Assembly (NCBI RefSeq): GCF_000013705.1 | Contig: NC_007947.1 | Span: 2,294,001-2,358,000, forward strand | Direction: 5' to 3' | From: Methylobacillus flagellatus KT | Lineage (GTDB): Bacteria; Pseudomonadota; Gammaproteobacteria; Burkholderiales; Methylophilaceae | DNA: 64,000 nt | Part shown: positions 23,550-35,700 of the stretch, in pieces | Position numbering within the stretch: position 1 is the first letter of the stretch | Layout: every line of letters begins with the position of its first letter | Program-made: the position numbers and the translations under genes | Notes under the pieces: generated by a model | What the model was told of the DNA's origin: nothing | Database searches by the model: none | Seen by the model: only the letters and a program-made list of their open reading frames with translations

Positions 23550-23577
23550 GGAGCCACCACCCAACATTGGTGGCTCC
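23550..23577. terminator. Strong hairpin after the porin gene
   Basis: GGAGCCACC and GGTGGCTCC pair over a 10-base loop, 16 bp beyond the porin stop on the minus strand. No T-run follows on the minus strand, so it may be a Rho-independent terminator of weak type or an mRNA-stabilising end. Confidence 0.5.
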
Positions 23578-23592
23578 AATTATGTGGGGTTT

Positions 23593-25041
23593 TTAAAAGC
23601 TGTACATTAACGTCACCCAGGTTTTTTCAGTATCTCTGAATCGACCTCGGTTTCCTGCAACGGTATTTGCAGCAGGTAGAGAAGTGTAATGATCTCCTTC
23701 CTTGAAACTACCATACTCAAATCTTGCCATCCAATTTTCGGCGAAATTGTAAGTAACAGATGCATTCCACTCTTTGCCCAACCTGGATCCAGTACCTCCT
23801 CCTACAGTATTGAACCCCACATCAGAGTCTAAGATGTGATAATCCATAAAGAAGGTGAAGTTTCCTGCTTTATATCCAGCGGTAATGAAGGTGTCCTTAA
23901 TACCTTCTTGAGGAGTAGATAAAAATTTATCTACCCAGCCCTGGAATAAGTGATTGGTGCCATAAGGCATTTGGAACCCATATTGCCCGTCATTGCTAGA
24001 TAACAGCTCTTGATCTGCTCTTAATGAAAATCCATTGTAGGCAAACCCGCCTCCAATCTTGTAATAGTGAGCATCAATACGGGAGTCCCCGTCACTATAA
24101 TCTGTCTGCTTAGCATACTCTGCCGTGTATAAGCCTTTCCAGGACTGATTGACTGGATGCACTCCATCCAATCTTACTCCTATAATCTTGTTACCCTGGT
24201 CTGCTTCCTGGTTGATCGCACCATTCTTCCCTTGAGCAATACCTGCCGTCCCTGCCGCATTGCCAAACCATGCTCGCCCGAACCCCAAGTCATCGAAACT
24301 AGAAAAATAACCATACCCACTCAATGACTCTGTGGGGGAAAGTCGGTATTTCATGTTAATGATCTCCAAGGCGCCATCATCACGCAGCTCTGTAGTCAAC
24401 TGCCTCACTCGTTCAATGTGCCCCACATAAAGCTCTGTATTGGAGATGGACTGATTAAGCATCGTTACCCCATCAAAGACTTGCATCACCTGCCTGAATA
24501 TGACATCCCCGATAAACCTGAAGTTATCCAAATTGATTTGCTGGCGCCCAAAGCGAATACGAGTGTCTTTAAGTCCCGTCCAATCAACATAAAGTTGGTT
24601 AATTTCAGTGATATCAGGATCTACGATTTTGGCTCTATCGATATTACTTGGATTATTGGAAATAGCATCGATCAAAACGCCATTGGTACCATCGTTGAAA
24701 TTGTCTATGAACTTGGTGACATTGATTAACTGGCCAGCAAAACTAATATTCTGATATGGCGCAGTTTGCCATCCAAGCAATGTCCTGAGCGTGAGCGCAG
24801 AGGCGCTTCTCAGATCTTCATTAGCAGTGGGATTAGCCTGCGCCCCTATGATTGTTGGCGGCTGCAGCCCATCCTGATCCACATGCTCGTATCTCAATCT
24901 CAGGCTGGACAAGCTTTTGCCGGCCTTGATTGCCTCCATCAAGGATTGCGGGACACGTTCTTCTGCCTGCGCTGAAAATGCAGTGATTCCAAGCAGGGCA
25001 CTGATCATGCCAAGTCTTGCGGTTGGGCTGATGACACTCAT
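23593..25041 (-). CDS. Outer-membrane porin, alginate-export/OprB-like family
   Basis: A 482-residue exported beta-barrel. A signal peptide ends near AFSAQAEE (residue 26); the body has many alternating aromatic strands (RLRYEHVDQ, FAGQLINVTKF, RIRFGRQQINLDNFRF, WNASVTYNFAENW) and ends in a terminal Phe (TLMYSF), the usual outer-membrane insertion signal. RFGRQQI and the SLRLRYE opening recall the alginate_exp-type porins. It is the last gene of the same-orientation run that includes the ABC importer and cyanase, so it may be the outer-membrane gate for that importer's substrate or a route out for products. Specificity cannot be read from the sequence. Confidence 0.8.
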   Translation of the reverse strand: MSVISPTARLGMISALLGITAFSAQAEERVPQSLMEAIKAGKSLSSLRLRYEHVDQDGLQPPTIIGAQANPTANEDLRSASALTLRTLLGWQTAPYQNISFAGQLINVTKFIDNFNDGTNGVLIDAISNNPSNIDRAKIVDPDITEINQLYVDWTGLKDTRIRFGRQQINLDNFRFIGDVIFRQVMQVFDGVTMLNQSISNTELYVGHIERVRQLTTELRDDGALEIINMKYRLSPTESLSGYGYFSSFDDLGFGRAWFGNAAGTAGIAQGKNGAINQEADQGNKIIGVRLDGVHPVNQSWKGLYTAEYAKQTDYSDGDSRIDAHYYKIGGGFAYNGFSLRADQELLSSNDGQYGFQMPYGTNHLFQGWVDKFLSTPQEGIKDTFITAGYKAGNFTFFMDYHILDSDVGFNTVGGGTGSRLGKEWNASVTYNFAENWMARFEYGSFKEGDHYTSLPAANTVAGNRGRFRDTEKTWVTLMYSF

Positions 25042-25106
25042 GGATGGCTCCTTGATTTATGGTTTAAAAAAATGGAAAACATTGCATATTCGTGGACATT
25101 CGCTCC

Positions 25107-25913
25107 TTAACTTATTAAGGCAAACAGGATGGCTGTGATCACCATCAACGTGCCCAACCCCCATTTGAGAGTCAGAGAAGAGAGCCGCAGGCTCAGCAGC
25201 CGACCGATCACTGCGCCTACACATGCCGCGCCGATAAAAGTTAGGCCCGTCTGGTTGATCGTGACGCCATCAAGCACCATGCCGCCAGCAACAATCGATG
25301 ACATCAGCGCGATCACCATGAGCGACGTGGCCGTGGTTGCTTGCACACTGATATTGGTGGACCTGGATAAGGCCGGTACAAGGATGAATCCGACACCGAC
25401 ACCATAAAGTCCCAAAAACACCCCCGAGCTAATCCCTGCGGCGGTAAGTTTGGCCGCACACTTTTTAGTCCAGATCAGCCGGCCAGTCTTCTCACTCAGC
25501 ATGCAAGGCCGCTGGATGCTGTCATTGTCAGAGCATCGCGATCCAACCATGGCAAATGCCTGCCTGAACAAATTTGATGCCATGACCAGCATCAGTATCG
25601 AAAACGAATACACCAGCCATTGGTGCGACAACTGGAAAGCAATCCATTGCCCTAAGGGAGAGGCCAGGCTGCCGATGAACACAATAAAAAGAGCGGCCCG
25701 CCATCTCAAATGGCCAGACTTGGCCGACTGTAACGCACCGACAAAGGCTGCAATCGCGACGGCAATCAAGGCAATGGGTTTGGCTTCCATGAAGCTGAAC
25801 CCCATCAACAGGGTTAGAAGCGGAATGGCAAAAACACCAGCCCCACCCCCCGTCAGGCCAAGCAGAACCCCTACTGCTGTTCCTGACAGCAGCACAATAA
25901 TCAAAGTAATCAT
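25107..25913 (-). CDS. TauE/SafE-family sulfite/organosulfur exporter
   Basis: A 268-residue membrane protein with about eight hydrophobic helices. The opening GVLLGLTGGGAGVFAIPLL and the second-half repeat SSGVFLGLYGVGVGFILVPAL are the two family half-repeats (DUF81). Known members export sulfite or sulfoacetate, or move other small anions. It starts 6 bp after a persulfide dioxygenase gene, whose product is sulfite, which makes sulfite export the likeliest task here. Confidence 0.85.
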   Translation of the reverse strand: MITLIIVLLSGTAVGVLLGLTGGGAGVFAIPLLTLLMGFSFMEAKPIALIAVAIAAFVGALQSAKSGHLRWRAALFIVFIGSLASPLGQWIAFQLSHQWLVYSFSILMLVMASNLFRQAFAMVGSRCSDNDSIQRPCMLSEKTGRLIWTKKCAAKLTAAGISSGVFLGLYGVGVGFILVPALSRSTNISVQATTATSLMVIALMSSIVAGGMVLDGVTINQTGLTFIGAACVGAVIGRLLSLRLSSLTLKWGLGTLMVITAILFALIS

Positions 25914-25919
25914 ATGAAT

Positions 25920-26774
25920 TTAAAGTAGATTCAGCGGTATTCTGAGGTATTGAACGCCATTATCTTCGGCCTCTGGAAATTGGCCTGCCCTGAGGTTCAC
26001 TTGCACTGCGGCAAGCATCAGTGCGGGCAAAGCAAGAGTTGCATCGCGTAAATTCCGCATCCGACAAAATTCAGCTTCATCTACACCGTCATGTATATGA
26101 ATATTTGAACTTCGCTGTTCTGCGATGGTGCTACTCCACCTGGCCTCCCTGCCATCAACCGGATAGTCATGACATGTGTAAAGAATGGTGTCTGGTGGAT
26201 AATTAAGGAGAGTCTTGATTGATCGATACAAACGCCTGGGATCTCCCCCTGGAAAGTCGCAACGGGCGGTCCCGACATCGGGCATAAAGATGGTATCCCC
26301 GACAAAGATGCCGACATGATCGACCTCATATGCAGTATCTGCCGGTGTATGGCCGGGCACATGGTGAGCTATTACCTTGAGTTTCCCGATAAAAAACATC
26401 TGGCCATTGTCAAAAAGCTGATCAAAACCTGCAAACTCAGTGTCCACCGTGTTATAGATCAGGTTGAATTTACCCAGCACACTCTGCACCTCCGACCCGA
26501 TGGCAATTGATCCGCCAAGCCGCTTTTTAAGATATGGCGCGGCAGAAATGTGGTCCGCATGAACATGGGTTTCCAGCAGCCAGACCGTCGTGAGATCCAT
26601 TTCCTTCACAAATGCCGCAATTCTATCGGCACTGGTCGTTGAGGTTCTGGCGGATCTAGGGTCAAAATCCAGTACGGGATCAATCACCGCACAGTACCCA
26701 CCAGGCTCGTCAAAAACGACATAGCTCACGGTGGAGGTCGCCTGATCATAAAACGCTTTTACTTGACCATTCAT
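25920..26774 (-). CDS. MBL-fold persulfide dioxygenase (ETHE1/Blh type)
   Basis: A 284-residue metallo-beta-lactamase-fold protein. The metal motif is THVHADH (His70, His72, Asp74, His75), with VPGHTPAD and VGDTIFMPDVGTARCDFPGGD further on. That last block is diagnostic of ETHE1-like persulfide dioxygenases, which oxidise glutathione persulfide to sulfite with one iron. It sits between cyanase and a sulfite-type exporter (gaps 16 and 6 bp), which points to sulfane-sulfur disposal during use of the operon's substrate. Confidence 0.88.
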   Translation of the reverse strand: MNGQVKAFYDQATSTVSYVVFDEPGGYCAVIDPVLDFDPRSARTSTTSADRIAAFVKEMDLTTVWLLETHVHADHISAAPYLKKRLGGSIAIGSEVQSVLGKFNLIYNTVDTEFAGFDQLFDNGQMFFIGKLKVIAHHVPGHTPADTAYEVDHVGIFVGDTIFMPDVGTARCDFPGGDPRRLYRSIKTLLNYPPDTILYTCHDYPVDGREARWSSTIAEQRSSNIHIHDGVDEAEFCRMRNLRDATLALPALMLAAVQVNLRAGQFPEAEDNGVQYLRIPLNLL

Positions 26775-26790
26775 CGTGAGCCTCTTTTAC

Positions 26791-27234
26791 CTAGAACTGC
26801 TTATAGGGAAGAAACTTGCCATTCAATACGATGTTGACGCGATCTCCCATCGGGTCGGCAACTCGCTGTAGATCCATCTTGAAATCGATGGCGCTCATGA
26901 TGCCATCACCGAACTCTTCATGAATAAGCTGCTTGATCGTTGTGCCATAGACATTGATCATTTCGTAGAAACGGTAGATCAGCGGATCAGTAGGTACTGC
27001 GGTTGGGAGGGAACCCTTGCATGGCGTGACCATCAACCATTTCTGGTCCTCATCACTCAAGTCAAAAATCTCGGCAATGATCTTGGCCTGCTCCGCATTC
27101 AAGGTCATCTGGCCCAGGCAGGCTGCAGTTACCCACTCCTTGCTGAGATTGAGTTTGGCAGCAACATCCGCCCATTTCAGGCCCTTCATTACTTTTGCAG
27201 TAATGATTTTTTCAGTGACATCAAGGCGACTCAT
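26791..27234 (-). CDS. cynS: Cyanase (cyanate hydratase)
   Basis: A 147-residue cyanase, which converts cyanate and bicarbonate to carbamate and CO2, yielding ammonia. The three catalytic residues of the E. coli enzyme (Arg96, Glu99, Ser122) align here as Arg88, Glu91 and Ser114 in PLIYRFYEMINVYG and EEFGDGIMSAIDF, at constant offset. The N-terminal half is the helix-turn-helix-like domain (WADVAAKLNLSKEWVTAACLGQ). It is embedded between an ABC importer of the nitrate/cyanate class and a persulfide dioxygenase. Confidence 0.96.
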   Translation of the reverse strand: MSRLDVTEKIITAKVMKGLKWADVAAKLNLSKEWVTAACLGQMTLNAEQAKIIAEIFDLSDEDQKWLMVTPCKGSLPTAVPTDPLIYRFYEMINVYGTTIKQLIHEEFGDGIMSAIDFKMDLQRVADPMGDRVNIVLNGKFLPYKQF

Positions 27235-27263
27235 AATTAGCTCCTGTTAAAAAAATTAAATAA

Positions 27264-28190
27264 TTAGGCGGTCTTGTGAATTGGCACTACCGATAGGTCA
27301 TCGACAGCGCTCTCTTCAGGTGATTGGTAATCCAAGCCCGGATACACAAGTGGTGGATGTTCCGGCGCCCGGCCATGGGATAAGTCCTTGGAGCGCGACA
27401 CGAGGTAATCAACAAAGTGATTCCGGATTTTGTAGTATTGGGGATCATGATGAAGCGAGGTGCGCTCGCGATTCTTCGACATGGTATTCACCACGATCTC
27501 AGCAACACGGGCACGCGGGCCGTTGCTCATCAGCAATACCTTGTCTGATAACAAGATCGCCTCATCGACATCGTGGGTGATCATGAACACTGTCTGTTGG
27601 GTTTCACGACAAATCTTCAGCAGCTCATCCTGAATCGTGCCACGAGTCAGGGCATCCAATGCCCCAAACGGCTCATCCAGCAACAACATCTTCGGTTCAA
27701 TCGCAAATGCCCGCGCTATACCTACACGTTGTTTCATACCGCCAGATAACTGGGAAGGTTTTTTATCCAATGCTGGTTGCAGACCGACAAGGGAGACATA
27801 CTTCATCACCTGCTCTTGGACTTTGGCCGCATTCCACTCGGGCCATTTGCTCTTGATGGCAAAGGCGATGTTTTGCCGAACCGTCAACCATGGCATGAGC
27901 GCATGGCCTTGAAACACAACACCGCGCTCCAGGCTTGGCGCAGAGACTTCCCGGCCATTCATGATGACCACCCCCTCTGTCGCGCTTTCCAGACCGGCCA
28001 ACACATTCAGAATGGTAGTTTTGCCACAGCCAGAATGGCCTATCAAACAGACAAACTCACCCTTGGCGATCGAAAAGTTGACGGCATCGAAGGTAGCCTC
28101 GGGCGCCCCAGGGTATCTCTTGGCTAGCCCTTCAACTTTAAGAAAATTCTTGGAGGTAGCGCCCCTCATCCCTTTTTTATCAGTCGACAT
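27264..28190 (-). CDS. ABC transporter ATPase, nitrate/cyanate/sulfonate class
   Basis: A 308-residue NrtD/SsuB-type ATPase. Walker A is GHSGCGKTT, the signature LSGGMKQR and Walker B LLLDEPFGALD, then the H-loop in MITHDVDEA. A C-terminal extension after residue about 255 is longer than in a minimal ATPase. It overlaps the permease gene by 11 bp. With the neighbouring cynS, the substrate is probably cyanate or a molecule that yields it. Confidence 0.92.
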   Translation of the reverse strand: MSTDKKGMRGATSKNFLKVEGLAKRYPGAPEATFDAVNFSIAKGEFVCLIGHSGCGKTTILNVLAGLESATEGVVIMNGREVSAPSLERGVVFQGHALMPWLTVRQNIAFAIKSKWPEWNAAKVQEQVMKYVSLVGLQPALDKKPSQLSGGMKQRVGIARAFAIEPKMLLLDEPFGALDALTRGTIQDELLKICRETQQTVFMITHDVDEAILLSDKVLLMSNGPRARVAEIVVNTMSKNRERTSLHHDPQYYKIRNHFVDYLVSRSKDLSHGRAPEHPPLVYPGLDYQSPEESAVDDLSVVPIHKTA

Positions 28191-29046
28191 ACGTCACCGC
28201 CTTTTGTACTTGGGCAAAACACATATCCAGAACCATGCCCACGACCCCGATCATCAAGATTGCAAATATCACGTTGGCAAGTGAAAGGTTGTTCCACTGA
28301 TTCCAGACAAAGTAACCAATCCCCGTGCCGCCAACGAGCATTTCCGCCGCGACAATCACCAGCCACGCAATCCCCATGCTGATCCGCATGCCGGTGACAA
28401 TGGTGGGCGCTGCGGCAGGTAGAATCACGCAGAAGGCTTTCCTCAATTGACCTACTTCCAGGGTTCTCGCCACGTTGAGCCATTCTTTTCTGACATTGGC
28501 TACACCGAATGCAGTGTTCATGAGCATTGGCCAAAGTGAACAGATGAAAATCACAAAAATGCCCGAAGCCGTAGAGTCCTTGATCGTGTAGAGCGCTATT
28601 GGCATCCAGGCCAATGGCGATATCGGCTTCAGTATCTGGATAAAAGGATCCAGCACCTTGAAGGCAAGCGGGCTCATCCCGATCAGGAACCCGAATGGAA
28701 TCGCAACTAGCGCCGCCATGCTGAAGCCAACCGCTACCCTGCCCAGCGAATGTGCAATCTGAATACCGATCCCCTTGTCATTTGGGCCGTTGTCGTAAAA
28801 CGGATGCGCAAGTTGCGACACGATGGTCTGTCCCAGCTCACTCGGCCTCGGGAAAGACGACGTGGACTGTTGCTCAGCCGCGGGGTCTTTTCCCATCAGT
28901 TGCAGATACTCAAGCTCATCGGCAGAAATCTCGGTTAAGGCCACCGAGCTTGGTGCGGTGGCAATGGCCCAGACTGCCACAATCAACAGCAAAAGCATTA
29001 CCGAAAGAAAGCCTGCCTTCATATTCTGAGTGCTGAACTTTTTCAT
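28180..29046 (-). CDS. ABC transporter permease, NrtB/SsuC class
   Basis: A 288-residue inner-membrane permease with an N-terminal helix (about 13-33), a periplasmic stretch of about 60 residues and five further helices. The EAA-like coupling loop falls in the MLMNTAFGVANVRKEWLNVART region, and WLVIVAAEMLVGGTGIGYFV is typical of nitrate, bicarbonate and cyanate permeases. It starts 4 bp after the substrate-binding gene. Confidence 0.92.
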   Translation of the reverse strand: MKKFSTQNMKAGFLSVMLLLLIVAVWAIATAPSSVALTEISADELEYLQLMGKDPAAEQQSTSSFPRPSELGQTIVSQLAHPFYDNGPNDKGIGIQIAHSLGRVAVGFSMAALVAIPFGFLIGMSPLAFKVLDPFIQILKPISPLAWMPIALYTIKDSTASGIFVIFICSLWPMLMNTAFGVANVRKEWLNVARTLEVGQLRKAFCVILPAAAPTIVTGMRISMGIAWLVIVAAEMLVGGTGIGYFVWNQWNNLSLANVIFAILMIGVVGMVLDMCFAQVQKAVTYVD

Positions 29047-29050
29047 GGCC

Positions 29051-30433
29051 TTACCTCTTTATCCCGAAACTATCGACGTAGGATTGCGGTTTTAGGGGAT
29101 CAAAGGCTTTCCCCATCACAACAATCTTCCCGCTTGATTGAGGCACTTCCAACCCAAGACCCTGCATTGCTTTCTTGGCATCCGTCATCATGAATACCTT
29201 TTCCGCAATGGCCTGATAACTGACATCGCCCTTGAGGTAACCCCAACGCTTCATTTGCGTCAGCATCCATAGCGCCATTCCCTCCCAGGGAATCGCCTCG
29301 AACCCAACACGTCCAGGAGCATTGACGATGTTCCCCAGCCCATCTGCGTATCTCCCGGTAATCACTTGGTTAACGATAATCTCGGGCTGATTGAGATACT
29401 TTGGCTTTGAAATAATGGCGGCGACCTCTTTCCGGTTGTTTTTGTCATGAGCAAAAGCGGATGACTTGAGAAATGCCCGGTACAAGGCAGCAAATGTGTT
29501 GGGGTTTTGCTGGATGAAGCTGGCGGAAGCACCGAATGAACAGCATGGATGGCCATTCCAGATATCCTGTGACAAGATGTGGATGAACCCGACACCTTCA
29601 AAGACTGCCCGCTGCGAAAATGGATCAGGCCCCAGGAAACCATCAATGTTGCCTGCACGCAGATTGGCCAGCATCTCGGCGGGAGGAACCACTCTCAACT
29701 GCACATCTCGATCCGGATCAATTCCAGCCTCGGCCAAGTAGTAACGCAGCAGGAAGTTGTGCATTGAGAATTCAAATGGAATGGCGAACTTGAAACCCTT
29801 CCAGTTTTTTGGATCACGATTCGACTTGTGCTTTAGTGCAAGCACAATGGCTTGGCCATTGACATTCTGAATCGCGGCAACATTCACCGTCTGTGCGCTT
29901 GACCCTGCACCCAAGGTCATTGCCAATGGCATAGGCGCCAGAAACTGAGAGGCGTCGTACTCATGGTTCATGATCTTGTCGCGGACCAAGGCCCACCCAG
30001 CTGTCTTGTTGAGCTCTACATTCAAGCCTTGTTCTTTGAAAAACCCCATTGGTTCAGCCAAGATCAATGGCGCTGCACAGGTGATAGGGATGAATCCGAC
30101 TTTGAGGGTCGATTTCTCGATCGATCCTTTTTCCATCGCCATGGCCTTCAAGGACCCCAGGGGGAAAACCGCACTGATGGCTGCCATTGCCGCACCTTTG
30201 CCGACAGCCCTCAGGAAATCGCGGCGTTGCCTCTCATGTGGCAGAATTGCCTTGACCAACGCGGCCTCGATGAAGTCATTCGAGAACTCCTCCTCCGTAC
30301 TGCGCCCGGTCTCTTGATGCTCAAGCGTGCTCATGCCGGCCTTTAGGTGATCTTCTTCACTCGCATGCTGTCCGCAAGAACAAGTAGCAAATAAAGGTTT
30401 GTCAGCATCGTATGGTGAAAAATGTTTTGTCAT
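29051..30433 (-). CDS. NrtA/CynA-type substrate-binding protein with Tat signal
   Basis: 460 residues. After an unusual N-terminal part of about 70 residues with a Cys-rich motif (FATCSCGQHASEEDH) comes a Tat-like signal HERQRRDFLRAVGKGAA. The rest is a periplasmic-binding-protein fold of the NrtA/CmpA class (LKVGFIPITCAAPLILAEPMGFF; GNIDGFLGPDPFSQRAV). I recall similar CTCG-bearing proteins annotated as nitrate or cyanate binding proteins. First of the three transporter genes, 22 bp after the rubredoxin reductase gene. Substrate is inferred from context as cyanate or thiocyanate; nitrate is less likely because no nitrate reductase is nearby. Confidence 0.88.
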   Translation of the reverse strand: MTKHFSPYDADKPLFATCSCGQHASEEDHLKAGMSTLEHQETGRSTEEEFSNDFIEAALVKAILPHERQRRDFLRAVGKGAAMAAISAVFPLGSLKAMAMEKGSIEKSTLKVGFIPITCAAPLILAEPMGFFKEQGLNVELNKTAGWALVRDKIMNHEYDASQFLAPMPLAMTLGAGSSAQTVNVAAIQNVNGQAIVLALKHKSNRDPKNWKGFKFAIPFEFSMHNFLLRYYLAEAGIDPDRDVQLRVVPPAEMLANLRAGNIDGFLGPDPFSQRAVFEGVGFIHILSQDIWNGHPCCSFGASASFIQQNPNTFAALYRAFLKSSAFAHDKNNRKEVAAIISKPKYLNQPEIIVNQVITGRYADGLGNIVNAPGRVGFEAIPWEGMALWMLTQMKRWGYLKGDVSYQAIAEKVFMMTDAKKAMQGLGLEVPQSSGKIVVMGKAFDPLKPQSYVDSFGIKR

Positions 30434-30455
30434 GGCAGTCCTTAGGTCTAGTCAA

Positions 30456-31703
30456 TCAAACGCTTAAGTAAAGAGAAGATGTTTTAATACGGATTACTGG
30501 GATTGAATGCGTGTAATAAATGGGTTCGCAACAAGCGATCTTGGCTGCAATCACTTTGGCTTGACGATGAATAGGCTCAATGAAGCGGATTGCCTGGCCG
30601 CTGATGCTCACGCAATCACCAAGGGCATGGATATTGGCTACATTGGTATCCAGGGTGACAGGATCAACACAAATACCCTCGTTCCATTGCAAGCCGGCGG
30701 TTCTTGCCAAGCGCCCAGGGGTTTGAAGCCCTGTTGCTGCAATTACAAAGTTCACATCCAGTGCATGCCCATTACTTAGTTCAACGTGCTTCAAATCACC
30801 TTGCTTGATGATCTGTTTGACAGTAGCCTCGCCAATGAAGGCAATCGGCAAGTATTTCCAGGCGTCCAACAGGCGCCGGGCATCCTCTGAATTCAGCAGA
30901 TTGCCCACCGGAGTGGGATTGGGGTCAGTCAGGAAAATACTATGTCCTGCGAGTGCCAGATCATTGGCCAATTCGCTACCGACCAATCCAGCTCCGGCAA
31001 TCAAGATATTACTTTTTGCGGGAATGGCATCCAGCCGGCTCCGGAAATCGATATACGTTTGAAGATTGTTAATCTGCCAGCAGATATTGGCAGGCAATGC
31101 ATCCATCTTCCGGGGGGTGGCCCCATGCGCCAATATCAAGTGAGTGTATTTTAGAGACCCCCTGGTGGTGCGCAATATTGAAGCCGCAGTATCAATGCTG
31201 ATTGCATCCGTCAGGGTCATGAGCCTCACACCCAACTTCAGTGCAGCTTCCTGCCCGCTTTCCTTGATGAGCGACCGTGGATCAATTCCCTTGGATATTG
31301 CAACAGAGAGCATGGGTTTATCATAAATATCGCCGCTACAAGCTGTGACGATAGTAATAGGCATGTCCTGGTCCAGAGCCCGGATGGCCCGGGCGGCCTG
31401 CCAGCCTGCATTGCCTGCGCCAACAATGACCACACCAGTTTGATGACGGCCTGCCGCAAAGCCAAAGCTGGTTGAGCAAGCCAATGTTGACATGTCCTGG
31501 GCGACATATAGCTCAAAATCTGTTTTCGTTACACCACAGAGCGGGCAGGACCAATCATCGGGAATATCCTCAAACCGTGTACCAGGCGCTAAACCGCTGT
31601 CAGGGTCCCCCAACGCTTCATCATAAATGAGGCCACATGCCAGGCAGATATATTTGCGCCATTCCACCACTGGTTCACCCTGCTTGGAAACTGCGCTAGT
31701 CAT
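30456..31703 (-). CDS. Rubredoxin fused to NAD(P)H:rubredoxin reductase
   Basis: 415 residues with two domains. Residues about 14-65 are a complete rubredoxin with its four iron cysteines in CLACG (Cys20, Cys23) and CPLCG. From about residue 88 a pyridine-nucleotide-disulfide-oxidoreductase-like flavoprotein follows ([17 protein letters not shown] for [18 protein letters not shown] for NAD(P)[11 protein letters not shown] and IHALGDC near the end). The single chain could pass electrons from NAD(P)H through FAD to the iron centre and on to an oxygenase. The start overlaps the stop of the acyl-CoA-dehydrogenase-like gene (ATGA), so that product is the natural partner. Confidence 0.92.
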
Positions 31704-32848
31704 GATGGCTGCTCCATCTTGCTAAGACGCGCCATTTCACGACGCAAATGCTTCAGCGCCGGGGTAACAATCGCGACGAAATGCGACTCCCGGACTTTGC
31801 GTTGTACTGGCGAGGACATCAGATAGCCTCTGGCCCCAGTGTGCAACACCGCCGACTGGGCTGCACGCAAGGCAAGTTCAGAGGCATGCGCCCGGACATC
31901 CAGCACATCAATCAGGTATTGCTTATCAGTTTCGTAGGGAGTTGCGGCAAGCTCCAATGTTCTGGACTTCAGTGCGTCCAGTTCGGCTTGCAATGCAAGC
32001 GGACGGTCTTCCAGGAACTCGTTCACATGACCCAATTGCTGCTCGACATTCCAAATCTCGTTGATTGAGCTCTGCGTCACACCCCAGCCCATGCCGCACT
32101 GCAGCAAAATGAATGAGGCGCGGATTTTATTGAGGAATGCTGGCACATTCTCGGCAATCACTTCAGAATCATTGATAAAAGCGTCTTTAAAGCGTAATGC
32201 CCACGTCCCGGTGCCTTCCATGCCAGCAAACGAAGGGCAATCCTTCAGCTCTATTCCCTGGCCATTGCAATGGCCCATGAACATCAACTCCCGCTCACCT
32301 TGCTCAGACTGCACAATGGCAATAGCCCCGAAGTAATGCTCTTTCCCAAGGTTGCTGACCCACGGCAATGTGCCGTTGATGAGATAACCACCGTCTACCT
32401 TCTGGGCTTTAAGCAGCATTTTCTCGATACCTGCCATTGCCTTCATGGGATTACTCAAGGCTGTACCGCCCAACGTCTTGCCCTGCAGGTGATTTTGCAG
32501 AGCAACTCCCTTCAAAGCGGGATTGTTTGAGTGATCCATATACAGGCCGCATGCAGCATGGCACCACATCATGAACCCTGTGGCTGCACAGACCTCGGAC
32601 ACCGCTGCGATCGCCTTCATGGTGGCCTGAAGGTTGACAGAACCTGCTTCTTGGTCACGACAATCGTATGCCCCTGCTTCCCCCAATTGCTTGAGGACGG
32701 TCTCTGGATAGGTACCGCGGCGATCGATATCCTCAACCATGTCCGCTAGGGACGTGCGGGCGATCTGCATGACGGCATGGAGCATATCGTCATGATGAGC
32801 GGTCATTGTGGCGTCAAATTCCATGGTAGGCTCGACTAATGCAGACAT
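31700..32848 (-). CDS. Acyl-CoA-dehydrogenase-fold flavoprotein, possible monooxygenase
   Basis: 382 residues with the acyl-CoA dehydrogenase layout: helical N-domain, a central beta-domain ([37 protein letters not shown]) and helical C-domain. The catalytic Glu region of true dehydrogenases is not obvious, and the neighbourhood holds no CoA ligase or hydratase. Members of this fold also work as FMN-dependent monooxygenases (DszC, SfnC type). Coupling to the rubredoxin-reductase fusion by an ATGA overlap favours a redox or oxygenase role. The substrate is unknown. Confidence 0.8.
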
Positions 32849-32864
32849 GGATCACTCCCTTTAA

Positions 32865-33422
32865 TCAAGCGAGTGAAATATCAAATGGAATTGGGTTACG
32901 CATGGTATTCGCCACGGGCGAGAAGAAATTAGCATGCTTGACGATTTCTTCCAGGACTTCACGCGGCGCATCGCCTTCAACATCGACCTTGACGCGGATT
33001 TGCTGAAAACCCATTTCATGCGGCTGTTTTTCAGCACCACCGGCACCCCACGCAGCCGGGTTTCCGATATCACCTTCCAAGTAGATTTCCAGCTTGCTGA
33101 GTTTTACGTTGCGATACGTGGCAACGGCAGTAATTCCCACGCATAGGCAACCGCCCAAACCGGATAAAACGATTTCACCTGGCGCAGGCGCAGTATCCTG
33201 GCCAAATAAATGCAATGGCTCATCGACCACCACTGCCTTATGATCACCCACATAACTCAAAGTGCGGAATTTGCCATCCACAACAGTGTGAACCTTGTTA
33301 GTGCCGCGCGATGCAGGATTATTGCGGCCTTTCTCAGCAAATTGCAGCAAGCCTTCTCGATCAATGGGCCGTAAAAACTTGGTGAAGGTGGACTCTTGCT
33401 CCTGAATTGTGCATGTACTCAT
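32865..33422 (-). CDS. OsmC-family protein lacking the second cysteine
   Basis: A 185-residue OsmC/Ohr-fold protein, a family that reduces organic hydroperoxides with a Cys pair. The first Cys region is SGLGGCLCVG (Cys92, Cys94), but the usual second motif CPV reads FFSPVANTM, with Ser in place of Cys. It may therefore not be a peroxidase; a thiol or persulfide carrier role is conceivable in this sulfur context. It is the first gene after the sigma-54 promoter and 16 bp ahead of the flavoprotein gene. Confidence 0.85.
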   Translation of the reverse strand: MSTCTIQEQESTFTKFLRPIDREGLLQFAEKGRNNPASRGTNKVHTVVDGKFRTLSYVGDHKAVVVDEPLHLFGQDTAPAPGEIVLSGLGGCLCVGITAVATYRNVKLSKLEIYLEGDIGNPAAWGAGGAEKQPHEMGFQQIRVKVDVEGDAPREVLEEIVKHANFFSPVANTMRNPIPFDISLA

Positions 33423-33465: not shown

Positions 33466-33480
33466 GCAAGAGGTGTGCCA
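33466..33480 (-). promoter_or_regulatory. Sigma-54 (-24/-12) promoter of the cyanase/ABC operon
   Basis: The minus strand reads TGGCAC-ACCTC-TTGC, a perfect match to the TGGCAC-N5-TTGC core. It lies 44 bp before the OsmC-like ATG and points into the ten-gene run. A sigma-54 activator is encoded just upstream. Confidence 0.88.
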
Positions 33481-33520: not shown

Positions 33521-33592
33521 ATTAATAATAAACTTTAAAGAAATTACAGCAACAACACCAAGTGTAAGGAGCGGAGCTTATGCAAGACATTT

Positions 33593-33623
33593 TGTTAACA
33601 ATGATTGACAAAATGTTAACAAT
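33593..33623. promoter_or_regulatory. Tandem TGTTAACAAT sites, putative activator enhancer
   Basis: Two direct repeats TGTTAACAAT (33593-33602 and 33614-33623) are spaced exactly 21 bp, two helical turns; each contains the palindrome TGTTAACA. An overlapping inverted repeat CATTTTGT/ACAAAATG (33588-33615) surrounds the first. They abut the activator stop codon and lie about 115 bp upstream of the -24 element, a classical enhancer distance. The sequence differs from the NifA site TGT-N10-ACA. Confidence 0.65.
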
Positions 33624-35219
33624 CTAGCCGTTTATGATTTTTTGCCAACGATATCTAAATTGGCGAAGCGTGAGACCCAATGATTGGGCAGCACGAGACT
33701 GGTTATTGCCAAAACGCTGCATTGCCTGCACTAGGCTCTCCGCATCATGAGATTCCGCTTTCAAATATTCGCGTATCAATGGCTGCTCTTTCATTACAGG
33801 CTGAAGGACAGATTTTTTGCGAGACTTACTTGCCTTGCCAAGCAGGCGGATGACATCCCTCACGCCGACCGATTGTTGCTCGGCCAATAGCACAATCCGC
33901 TCAATGGCATTGCTCAATTCCCGGATATTCCCGGGCCAGTCCATGCTTTCCAGATGATCCAGCGCATCAGGCGAAAAATAGACATTGCGCTCATTCGCCT
34001 GATTTGCACGATTCAGGAAATGCAACGCCAATGCGCGAATGTCCTCCCGCCGCTCTTCCAGTGAAGGGAGCTGAATCGGCACCACATTCAAGCGGTAAAA
34101 CAAATCCTCCCGGAAATTGCCCAACTCCACCTCATGCTGCAGATCCCTATTGGTGGCCGCCACAACACGCACATTCAGACTGATTTCCTTTTTTCCGCCA
34201 AGACGCACAATAGTGCCTTCTTGCAGGGTTCTGAGAAGCTTGGTCTGCATAAGCAATGGCATTTCCCCGATTTCATCCAGAAATATAGTGCCGTGGTTAG
34301 CCTGCTCGAACCAGCCAACCCGGGTGGTATTGGCGCCAGTGAAAGCACCTCGCTCATGACCAAACAACTCGGATTCGAATAGCGACTCTGGAATAGCAGC
34401 GCAATTCACCTTTACGAATGGCGAGTCCCTCCTCGGGCTCGCCATGTGCAATGCCCTGGCAAACAGCTCCTTGCCGCTGCCCGACTCACCCAGCAAAAGC
34501 ACGATAGCTGTTGAAGTGGATACCCTTTCCAGATCCGCAATCGCTTTCAACAAAGCGGGAGACTGGCCAACAATGCCATACCGCGCAGTTGATGACTCCA
34601 GCGCATTTGTGAGGATCTCGTTTCGCGCTTCCAGTGAACGGGTTTTTTCCTCCACCAGCCCCTGAAGCTGCAGAAGCTGGCCGGTCAGGGTGGCCAACAT
34701 TTTGAGGACGGACACATCGTCACTGATCAACCGGTTGCGGCGGCGAATACGGTGGACGGCCAAAACGCCTTCGACTCTTTTGTTGACCTCAATGGGGACA
34801 GCAATAAACGCGACAGTTTCTTGAGGCAGGTCGGCCCGGCTAACAGCTCGCCCAAGAAAGCGGGGATCAGCATCGATATTCTGCACAATGATCGCCTGGC
34901 CGGTAGCAAGGACAGCGCCCGTAATGCCTTCCCCGACCTTATAGACCCCCCGGCCTATTTCACTACGCGTAAGACCATATGCATAGGCTATCCTGGCCAC
35001 ATTACCGTCCTCATCAGGATGAAGTTGCTTTAATACGACGCGACCGCGATTCAGACCCAGCAGCTCCGACGCCAGATGCAGCATTTCCCTGAAAACGATA
35101 TCAGACGATAAGCTCTGGCCAACCAAGCGCATCACTTCGCCTAGCAACAATCGTTCTTGTTCATTCCAGGATGGCTCGGTGGAGATAATTTCAGATTTTT
35201 GATTGGCGTCTTGGTCCAT
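33624..35219 (-). CDS. NifA-like GAF/AAA+/Fis sigma-54 activator
   Basis: 531 residues. An N-terminal GAF domain (about 35-180; [25 protein letters not shown]) precedes a sigma-54 AAA+ domain (about 215-445) with Walker [14 protein letters not shown], the sigma-54-contacting GAFTGA in [12 protein letters not shown], and Walker [14 protein letters not shown]-terminal Fis helix-turn-helix ([21 protein letters not shown]) binds DNA. The GAF part resembles NifA, but no nif gene is near. It lies directly upstream of, and in the same orientation as, the sigma-54 promoter operon it probably controls. The signal sensed by the GAF domain is unknown. Confidence 0.94.
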
Positions 35220-35328
35220 GTGGGCTCCAACTCAATATAAGCAGTGGCAGCTTACCAGACCGCATATTTTAAGTGAGTAATAGTGTTGCACTATGGATCG
35301 CCCCTAGCAATCTGGACAGGGGACAATC

Positions 35329-35700
35329 TGAATTGCCCCGGTTTTCGAGGAGGCAGTCTGGTTAAAGTACAGCACTCATCGGCACAGATTCAGAGAGATT
35401 GCGGTAATAGCATTCTTCAGCCTGCGCAGGAGGAATATACCCGATGGCGCCGAGCAGGAGCTGATGGTCTCGGCTAGGGCATTGTCGTAACTGTCGCCCC
35501 GACTGCCGACAGACGGCTCAATACCAGCCTCTGTCAGGCGCCCTGTATCGCGGATGGTCACGGATTGCGATCCTCCGTCGGAATGATGAATCAGGACGTC
35601 GGTCATATAGGGCATGCTCCATGGCATCCAGCACGAACTCCGTACTCATGGTACCACTCACCCGCCAACCGACGATGCGGCGGGCGAATACCCGGAAGCG
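35329..35700 (-). pseudogene. Decayed IS3-family transposase (OrfB) remnant
   Basis: Conceptual reading of the minus strand gives pieces of an IS3-type DDE transposase in different frames: VFARRIVGWRVSGTMSTEFV, then after a frameshift LIHHSDGGSQSVTIRDTGRL and EPSVGSRGDSYDNALAETI, then, after an internal deletion, IGYIPPAQAEECYYRNL and a TAA at 35362-35364. An IS-end-like stretch (35331-35356, TGAATTGCCCCGGTTTT onward) follows the stop. The 5' half, OrfA and the other end are missing. It marks a past insertion next to the sigma-54 operon. Confidence 0.85.

Follow-up and report, generated by a model that had tools for sequence, protein, structure and literature searches.

A conserved sigma-54-controlled operon of Methylobacillus flagellatus KT that may serve the use of thiocyanate as a nitrogen source

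What compound would require a cell to keep together genes for cyanase, a persulfide dioxygenase, and a flavoprotein with the fold of an acyl-CoA dehydrogenase (ACAD)? This question is raised by ten open reading frames (ORFs) that run in one direction, from position 33422 to 23593 on the minus strand, in a 64,000-nucleotide stretch of the Methylobacillus flagellatus KT genome (NC_007947.1, positions 2,294,001 to 2,358,000; hereafter the window). An earlier note, made from the letters of this DNA and its ORFs, suggested that the genes may assimilate thiocyanate or a similar anion by way of cyanate and persulfide. The operon is a real, conserved, sigma-54-controlled system. As to its purpose, we lean slightly toward the view that it is probably of the ammonium-repressed type and would let the cell draw on thiocyanate (SCN-), chiefly to obtain nitrogen. 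Papers given below by PMC number are cited for those parts of their text that were available.

The ORF coordinates bear out the ten genes, the strand and the order described in the earlier note, and Pfam and NCBIfam agree with its protein classes (Table 1). The short gaps that it reported are likewise real: in order of transcription the junctions measure 16, -4, 22, 4, -11, 29, 16, 6 and 65 bp, such that eight of nine are below 30 bp and the last is the exception. The control region was absent from that account. Upstream of osmC lie a promoter, then a pair of direct repeats, and then the gene for a sigma-54 activator. Specifically, the sequence ahead of the first gene (TGGCACACCTCTTGC) matches the sigma-54 box exactly, and the activator scores 460 bits against the NCBIfam NifA model TIGR01817, whose cut-off is 528.85. 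At the other end, the hairpin behind the porin gene, likewise absent from the earlier note, is probably the end of the transcript.

Table 1. Features of the operon and its flanks, listed from the upstream side
Feature	Position in window	Strand	Basis or remark
Probable regulator of the operon, a sigma-54 activator of NifA/CynF type	33624..35219	-	TIGR01817 NifA, below cut-off
Two 17-nt direct repeats (TTGTTAAC...), 21 nt apart	33586..33623		Probable activator-binding sites
Sigma-54 promoter TGGCAC-N5-TTGC	33466..33480	-	Exact -24/-12 box, 58 bp 5' of first ATG
OsmC-like protein	32865..33422	-	Pfam, alignments
ACAD-fold flavoprotein, candidate first enzyme on thiocyanate	31700..32848	-	Pfam/NCBIfam, alignments
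Rubredoxin-NAD(P)H:rubredoxin reductase fusion, candidate electron partner	30456..31703	-	Pfam, NCBIfam (rubredoxin + pyridine-nucleotide reductase)
NrtA/CmpA/CynA-type substrate-binding protein	29051..30433	-	Pfam NMT1_2
ABC permease, NtrB type	28180..29046	-	TIGR01183 over cut-off
ABC ATPase, NtrCD type	27264..28190	-	TIGR01184 over cut-off
Cyanase CynS	26791..27234	-	TIGR00673 over cut-off; motifs match E. coli cyanase
Persulfide dioxygenase (ETHE1/PDO type), MBL fold	25920..26774	-	4ysk match; motifs HVHADH, GHT, GDT, CHDY
TauE/SafE-type exporter, probable sulfite exporter	25107..25913	-	Pfam only
Outer-membrane porin, alginate-export class	23593..25041	-	Pfam only, 34.9 bits
Hairpin, -20.2 kcal/mol in 55-nt fold	23550..23577	-	Directly 3' of porin stop codon

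Relatives of the locus were drawn from four sets. Among 398 proteobacterial genomes, a flavoprotein match was found in 24 at E<=1e-20 and in 16 at E<=1e-60, counting the genome that holds the window, and the regions around the 15 others at the stricter threshold and one weaker match were read. A tblastn search of plasmids matched 223 records, nine of which were examined. A scan of 84,980 named genomes yielded 307 relatives, and the best 80, mostly from Burkholderiales, are referred to as the 80 named loci. Finally, 36 of 99 genomes of a Methylobacterium-like genus match at E<=1e-60, and 17 of these carry a window-type copy (E<=1e-190); the genus was inferred from one member, whose cyn region has 83% DNA identity to a Methylobacterium aquaticum plasmid. 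Neighbours were counted by tblastn as homologues within 11 kb of the flavoprotein gene, and because many contigs are short, the counts are lower bounds.

These counts define a conserved core comprising the OsmC-like protein, the ACAD-fold flavoprotein and the rubredoxin reductase. Near the flavoprotein gene in the 80 named loci are the reductase in 79 and OsmC in 72; an AhpD-like protein occurs in 6, and one or the other of OsmC and AhpD in 78. Next in frequency are the sigma-54 activator (51), cyanase (45), an NrtA-type binding protein (44) and a rhodanese (42), followed by a second type of binding protein (9), persulfide dioxygenase (4) and TauE (3). A further 24 loci, two of which (L035 and L048, the latter from a sister ACAD subfamily) come from one genome, give a similar picture for OsmC (19) or the AhpD-like protein (5), with one of the two present in all 24; cyanase and rhodanese are each found in 11, the reductase in 7 plus 3 of another type, and the dioxygenase in 2. 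Among the 17 window-type Methylobacterium-like loci, OsmC is present in 17, the reductase in 16, and the activator and the binding protein each in 15. The dioxygenase occurs in nine of these, eight times between the reductase and the binding protein and once upstream, and rhodanese occurs in one. The earlier note would have been refuted by a neighbourhood that is not conserved elsewhere; instead, the grouping recurs in alpha-, beta- and gammaproteobacteria.

The promoter is shared as well. A TGGCA[CT]-N5-TTGC box lies within 3.5 kb 5' of the ACAD gene at 70 of 104 related loci, including 59 of the 65 that carry a sigma-54 activator homologue, versus none of 104 when these regions are searched on the complementary strand. 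A PAS histidine kinase (26 of the 80 named loci) and a LuxR-type response regulator (27 of 80) are encoded near the binding-protein gene (for example, L055, 12509-14433), and this pair is possibly a sensor of the substrate.

Plasmids carry the core in several arrangements. The gene order is activator-osmC-ACAD-reductase-cynS in Marinobacter shengliensis and, by comparison, activator-osmC-ACAD-reductase-NrtABD-cynS in Caballeronia. In Acetobacter ascendens it is osmC-ACAD-rubredoxin-NrtABD-cynS-alginate-export protein-activator, such that an alginate-export family protein follows cynS there too. An importer precedes osmC-ACAD in Methylocystis, osmC-ACAD-sulfurtransferase in Pseudosulfitobacter, and osmC-ACAD-sulfurtransferase-reductase in Rhodobacteraceae SC52. 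The AhpD-like gene takes the place of osmC in Moraxella osloensis (AhpD-like-ACAD-reductase-NrtABD) and in Neisseria gonorrhoeae (AhpD-like-ACAD, then a rubredoxin ORF). Neisseria-type loci (L042, 8587-10322; L053, 7300-9371) have this AhpD-like/ACAD pair, in L053 with the rubredoxin ORF just behind. The Synechococcus plasmid pANL (L054, 6376-10835) carries a flavoprotein copy with both of the cysteines discussed below, next to cysK, a DUF4242 gene and an importer. This plasmid encodes many sulfur-related genes, including the sulfur-starvation-induced srpI (PMC8049743), and its flavoprotein copy would be a natural place to test whether thiocyanate can serve as a sulfur source.

Why would this core be found with cyanase? 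The cyanase motifs YRFYE and SAIDF align with those of E. coli cyanase (1dw9) around Arg88, Glu91 and Ser114, which we take to be the catalytic residues. The binding protein, permease and ATPase of the NrtA/CynA class adjoin cynS on its upstream side, as in cynABDS clusters, and the sigma-54 activator and promoter supply the corresponding regulatory parts. The core is grouped with cyanase far beyond chance. At the level of the phylum (two samples, 398 and 396 genomes), cyanase is present in 13 of 16 genomes with the flavoprotein (E<=1e-60) versus 57 of the remaining 380 (Fisher p 2e-8), and in a 300-genome sample of the order in 14 of 25 versus 52 of 275 (p 1e-4); both p-values ignore shared ancestry, which must be held against the argument. 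In nine of the 14 genomes from the order, the two genes are within 10.5 kb of each other.

This association could also be explained by plain cyanate assimilation of the cynFABDS type, whose genes would share a nitrogen-starvation promoter with a flavoprotein, OsmC-like protein and reductase that act on another nitrogen compound, the dioxygenase and TauE being there for unrelated sulfide. Indeed, the importer, cyanase and activator match those of the proven cynFABDS system (PMC6627978). Furthermore, in many Burkholderiales loci cyanase is on the opposite strand and convergent with the flavoprotein unit, which indicates separate units that travel together. However, when parsimony is applied to a quickly made tree with 105 flavoproteins, at least 17 changes are required in the link to cyanase (57 scored with and 35 without, with gene-less rows on short contigs unscored and branches long), compared with 11 for rhodanese and 5 for the dioxygenase. 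Since the core and cyanase have been joined or parted so often, a shared pathway is suggested rather than a shared promoter. Nor does plain cyanate assimilation account for the rhodanese or persulfide dioxygenase near the flavoprotein in 46 of the 80 named loci, and we regard it as unlikely.

The MBL-fold protein of the operon has its nearest solved relative in 4ysk (328 bits), which we take to be a Pseudomonas putida persulfide dioxygenase, and the iron-ligand motifs expected of the ETHE1/PDO type are all present. The rhodanese found in relatives has the active loop CFKGAR in 34 of 34 aligned sequences, and the closest chains among solved structures are for the most part thiosulfate sulfurtransferases. 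The loop speaks against a mercaptopyruvate-type enzyme, which would have CG-S/T-G-V-T, although the best NCBIfam match, to a 3-mercaptopyruvate model at 82 of 250 bits and far under cut-off, points the other way. That the core is accompanied by cyanase, rhodanese and persulfide dioxygenase suggests cyanate plus sulfane sulfur as the product set. Together with an importer for small anions and a flavoenzyme of redox type, this set points to thiocyanate as the simplest small anion that yields both.

The flavoprotein is the candidate for the first enzyme on this path. It is 54-66% identical to 36 named relatives and 37-57% identical across a wider set of 20 aligned rows. In all 20 rows, Thr362-Pro occupies the position of the Glu in the acyl-CoA dehydrogenase YEGT motif, and Ser245 of the window protein faces the Glu of isovaleryl-CoA dehydrogenase. 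We take these to be the two positions of the ACAD catalytic base, and with Glu at neither, the window protein does not qualify as an acyl-CoA dehydrogenase in the enzymatic sense. Cys87, Phe92 and Trp95 are present in 20 of 20 rows, and Cys96 in 19. A sister ACAD subfamily of approximately 30% identity has Ser at position 87 and, at position 96, Gly or in one case Ala, and the two cysteines appear to be specific to the subfamily found in the window.

In 10 of the 11 distinct loci scored, the sister subfamily has a conserved AhpD-like/ACAD/NMT1-type importer operon (rows L018-L024, L026-L029 and L048, where L026 and L048 are the same gene; L025 has no row), and its role is perhaps in sulfur acquisition. 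This observation leads to a second alternative, in which thiocyanate is replaced as substrate by a different small sulfur anion or by an organosulfur compound such as a thiocarbamate, a thioamide or a sulfonate-like molecule. The flavoprotein would then cleave a C-S bond, with cyanate arising as a by-product, and only in some hosts. The sister operon is what one might expect in that case, and some relatives pair the ACAD gene with a different NMT1-type importer, which NCBIfam groups with sulfonate binders at a score below cut-off. Moreover, the flavoprotein of the window has a weak, sub-cut-off NCBIfam match to an ACAD-fold desulfinase, and the copy on sulfur-gene-rich pANL scores weakly with SfnB, although SfnB gives no match to the window protein at E<=0.001. 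Such a substrate leaves the strong association with cyanase unexplained, and we consider it improbable.

Thiocyanate oxidation would in addition assign a function to the OsmC-like protein. In this family, Cys92 is the sole cysteine conserved throughout (86 of 91 rows), and the position of the resolving cysteine (Ser168) is Ser in 87 of 91, the deviating rows including mis-called ORFs. The alignment to 2opl contains the same SPV motif, and the peroxidatic and resolving roles of the two positions are presumed by us. Because there is one family-wide cysteine and a serine at the resolving position, the protein is evidently not a canonical two-cysteine OsmC/Ohr peroxidase, judged from its alignment. 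The window's OsmC has two further cysteines, Cys4 and Cys94, of which Cys94 recurs in only 2 of 91 rows. The AhpD-like protein that stands in for OsmC has a CxxC motif in 11 of 11 aligned rows. On a plasmid of Rhizobium sp. AB2/73 (L166, 4923-10356), an OsmC 68% identical to that of the window is found without an annotated ACAD, in a cluster with a three-gene split-beta enzyme resembling nitrile hydratase and thiocyanate hydrolase, CbtA/CbtB, an aquaporin and an alpha/beta hydrolase. This cluster may be a second, independent tie of this OsmC to C-N compounds, but the alpha chain of the split-beta enzyme passes the cut-off of the nitrile hydratase model (249.9 of 249.85 bits) and fails that of thiocyanate hydrolase (222.1 of 291.45).

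A pathway for thiocyanate can be assembled from these parts. The porin and the NrtABD/CynABD-type importer would take up SCN- as well as cyanate. The flavoprotein, supplied with electrons by the rubredoxin reductase, would oxidise SCN-, most likely with O2 to hypothiocyanite, and Cys92 of OsmC, or the AhpD-like protein elsewhere, would trap the oxidised sulfur as Cys-S-SCN; alternatively, Cys-S-SCN might be formed directly. Hydrolysis would then give cyanate and a Cys persulfide. Cyanase would convert cyanate to ammonium and CO2, and the sulfane sulfur could pass through glutathione persulfide to the dioxygenase, to be released as sulfite and exported by TauE. In many relatives, rhodanese would replace the dioxygenase and TauE. 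Each chemical step is our reading of what was observed, namely gene content, gene order, promoter, conservation and residues. Two points lead us to prefer the oxygen-dependent version: the presence of the reductase, and the behaviour of a consortium dominated by heterotrophs, which degraded SCN- only with oxygen and was inhibited by ammonium (PMC6440457).

A broader proposal is possible, although we hold it tentatively. A flavoenzyme of the ACAD fold, bearing the two cysteines specific to its subfamily, would oxidise SCN-, hand the sulfur to a cysteine of an OsmC- or AhpD-like protein as persulfide, and free cyanate, such that a third, unrelated thiocyanate route would be a main one for proteobacteria that are not sulfur oxidisers, serving nitrogen supply and, with the other importer, sulfur supply. 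Several reports accord with the use of thiocyanate. Methylobacterium includes a species described as growing on thiocyanate or cyanate as sole nitrogen source (a title cited in PMC5328954). In a thiocyanate-fed fuel cell, cyanase mRNA was mostly from unclassified Proteobacteria and Betaproteobacteriales, and no thiocyanate dehydrogenase mRNA is identified in the available part of that study (PMC6172326).

A number of observations weigh against the use of thiocyanate, and the interpretation in the earlier note is supported in part. The association with cyanase, rhodanese and dioxygenase speaks for its thiocyanate interpretation, but the rarity of persulfide dioxygenase (4/80) and TauE (3/80) marks these as accessory genes, and no cyanase was found within 11 kb in 35 of the 80 named loci (many on short contigs), while it is near the flavoprotein in only 4 of the 17 window-type Methylobacterium-like loci (some contigs being short). 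In several relatives, neither type of reductase lies close to the flavoprotein gene. Neisseria-type loci show no cyanase or importer nearby, and a thiocyanate nitrogen pathway leaves them unexplained. The importer is of the class of the proven cyanate importer (PMC6627978) and cannot be told apart here from CynABD. In a profile search, short-chain and isovaleryl-CoA dehydrogenases come closer to the flavoprotein family than do the known flavin monooxygenases matched, and for this reason the oxygenase step is a guess. The fuel-cell study also implies thiocyanate hydrolase reads (PMC6172326), which makes it compatible with the pathway rather than proof of it. Finally, copper thiocyanate dehydrogenase homologues have been predicted in an alphaproteobacterial Afipia (PMC8061750), so that this enzyme reaches beyond Thioalkalivibrio and the gammaproteobacteria.

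The remaining explanation, that the flavoprotein oxidises cyanide to cyanate, an oxygenase activity found in a pseudomonad, with rhodanese (frequent in the named loci) and the other sulfur genes acting in detoxification, is very improbable: hydrogen cyanide needs no ABC importer, yet importers adjoin the flavoprotein even without cyanase; the persulfide dioxygenase and the copy on a sulfur-related plasmid are unexplained; and the genes we presume to make up the Nit1C cyanide cluster are not among the ten.

How did M. flagellatus come by the operon? The G+C content of the operon is 50.5%, versus 55.6% for the window minus the operon and its regulator. Just 5' of the activator gene (window 35300-35640, minus strand) lies a stop-interrupted remnant that reads like the end of an IS3-type transposase, with HHSDGGSQ...YDNALAETI, which we take to be the motif of that type. 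Two other genomes of the genus have no flavoprotein match at E<=1e-60, and one of them does have cyanase. The low G+C content, the two flavoprotein-free genomes and the transposase-like remnant together suggest horizontal gain. In its own genome (one contig, 2,971,517 bp), the cynS of the operon is the one cyanase match.

Heterotrophs that use thiocyanate nitrogen have long been known in Klebsiella, Sphingomonas, Ralstonia, Methylobacterium and Arthrobacter (PMC5328954). The first enzymes named in the available literature are thiocyanate hydrolase and copper thiocyanate dehydrogenase, mainly in sulfur oxidisers. We found no account of the present grouping as a thiocyanate pathway, in a search mostly outside subscription journals that is not proof of absence, and no assigned function for the core flavoprotein family. 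If the pathway is correct, the flavoprotein would be a third thiocyanate enzyme, unrelated to the other two, and its reaction would be of a kind new to both the ACAD fold and OsmC. The operon would provide candidate genes for thiocyanate-using heterotrophs and a marker with which to search metagenomes, and it might find use in the treatment of wastewater from mining and coking.

Among systems already described, Pseudomonas pseudoalcaligenes CECT5344 cynFABDS has a sigma-54 activator, ABC importer, cyanase and sigma-54 promoter in common with the operon; the neighbouring genes stated for it encode glutamate synthase subunits, HemE and a transposase, and the available text names no OsmC, ACAD flavoprotein, rubredoxin reductase, persulfide dioxygenase or TauE beside it (PMC6627978). 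The copper thiocyanate dehydrogenase of Thioalkalivibrio would, like the proposed pathway, yield cyanate and sulfur from thiocyanate, but it is a predicted copper protein exported by twin-arginine translocation and clustered with flavocytochrome c and copper genes (PMC5328954, PMC5744179), none of which are among the ten genes. In Pfam and NCBIfam, which may hold no model for this enzyme, none of the matches to the ten operon proteins has its name; no search aimed at it was made in the rest of the genome. Some organisms with the cobalt thiocyanate hydrolase ScnABC also possess cyanase (PMC5328954). In this carbonyl sulfide (COS) pathway the nitrogen of thiocyanate also ends as ammonium, but an enzyme related to nitrile hydratase (NHase) hydrolyses thiocyanate to COS; the NHase alpha family (PF02979) has no match in the M. 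flagellatus genome, and control genomes were equally silent.

Known sulfide detoxification units contain the same adjacent pair of persulfide dioxygenase and TauE proteins (here 25920-26774 and 25107-25913), whereas the pair in the window follows cyanase under the control of a sigma-54 promoter, and the ten genes include neither a sulfide sensor nor a sulfide:quinone reductase. Similarly, SfnB/DszC-type enzymes and the desulfinase are ACAD-fold proteins that serve sulfur acquisition. The family matches given above, to the desulfinase for the window protein and to SfnB for the pANL copy, are weak and below cut-off, and the likeness to the flavoprotein of this operon would be in the use of the ACAD fold for sulfur chemistry rather than for beta-oxidation.

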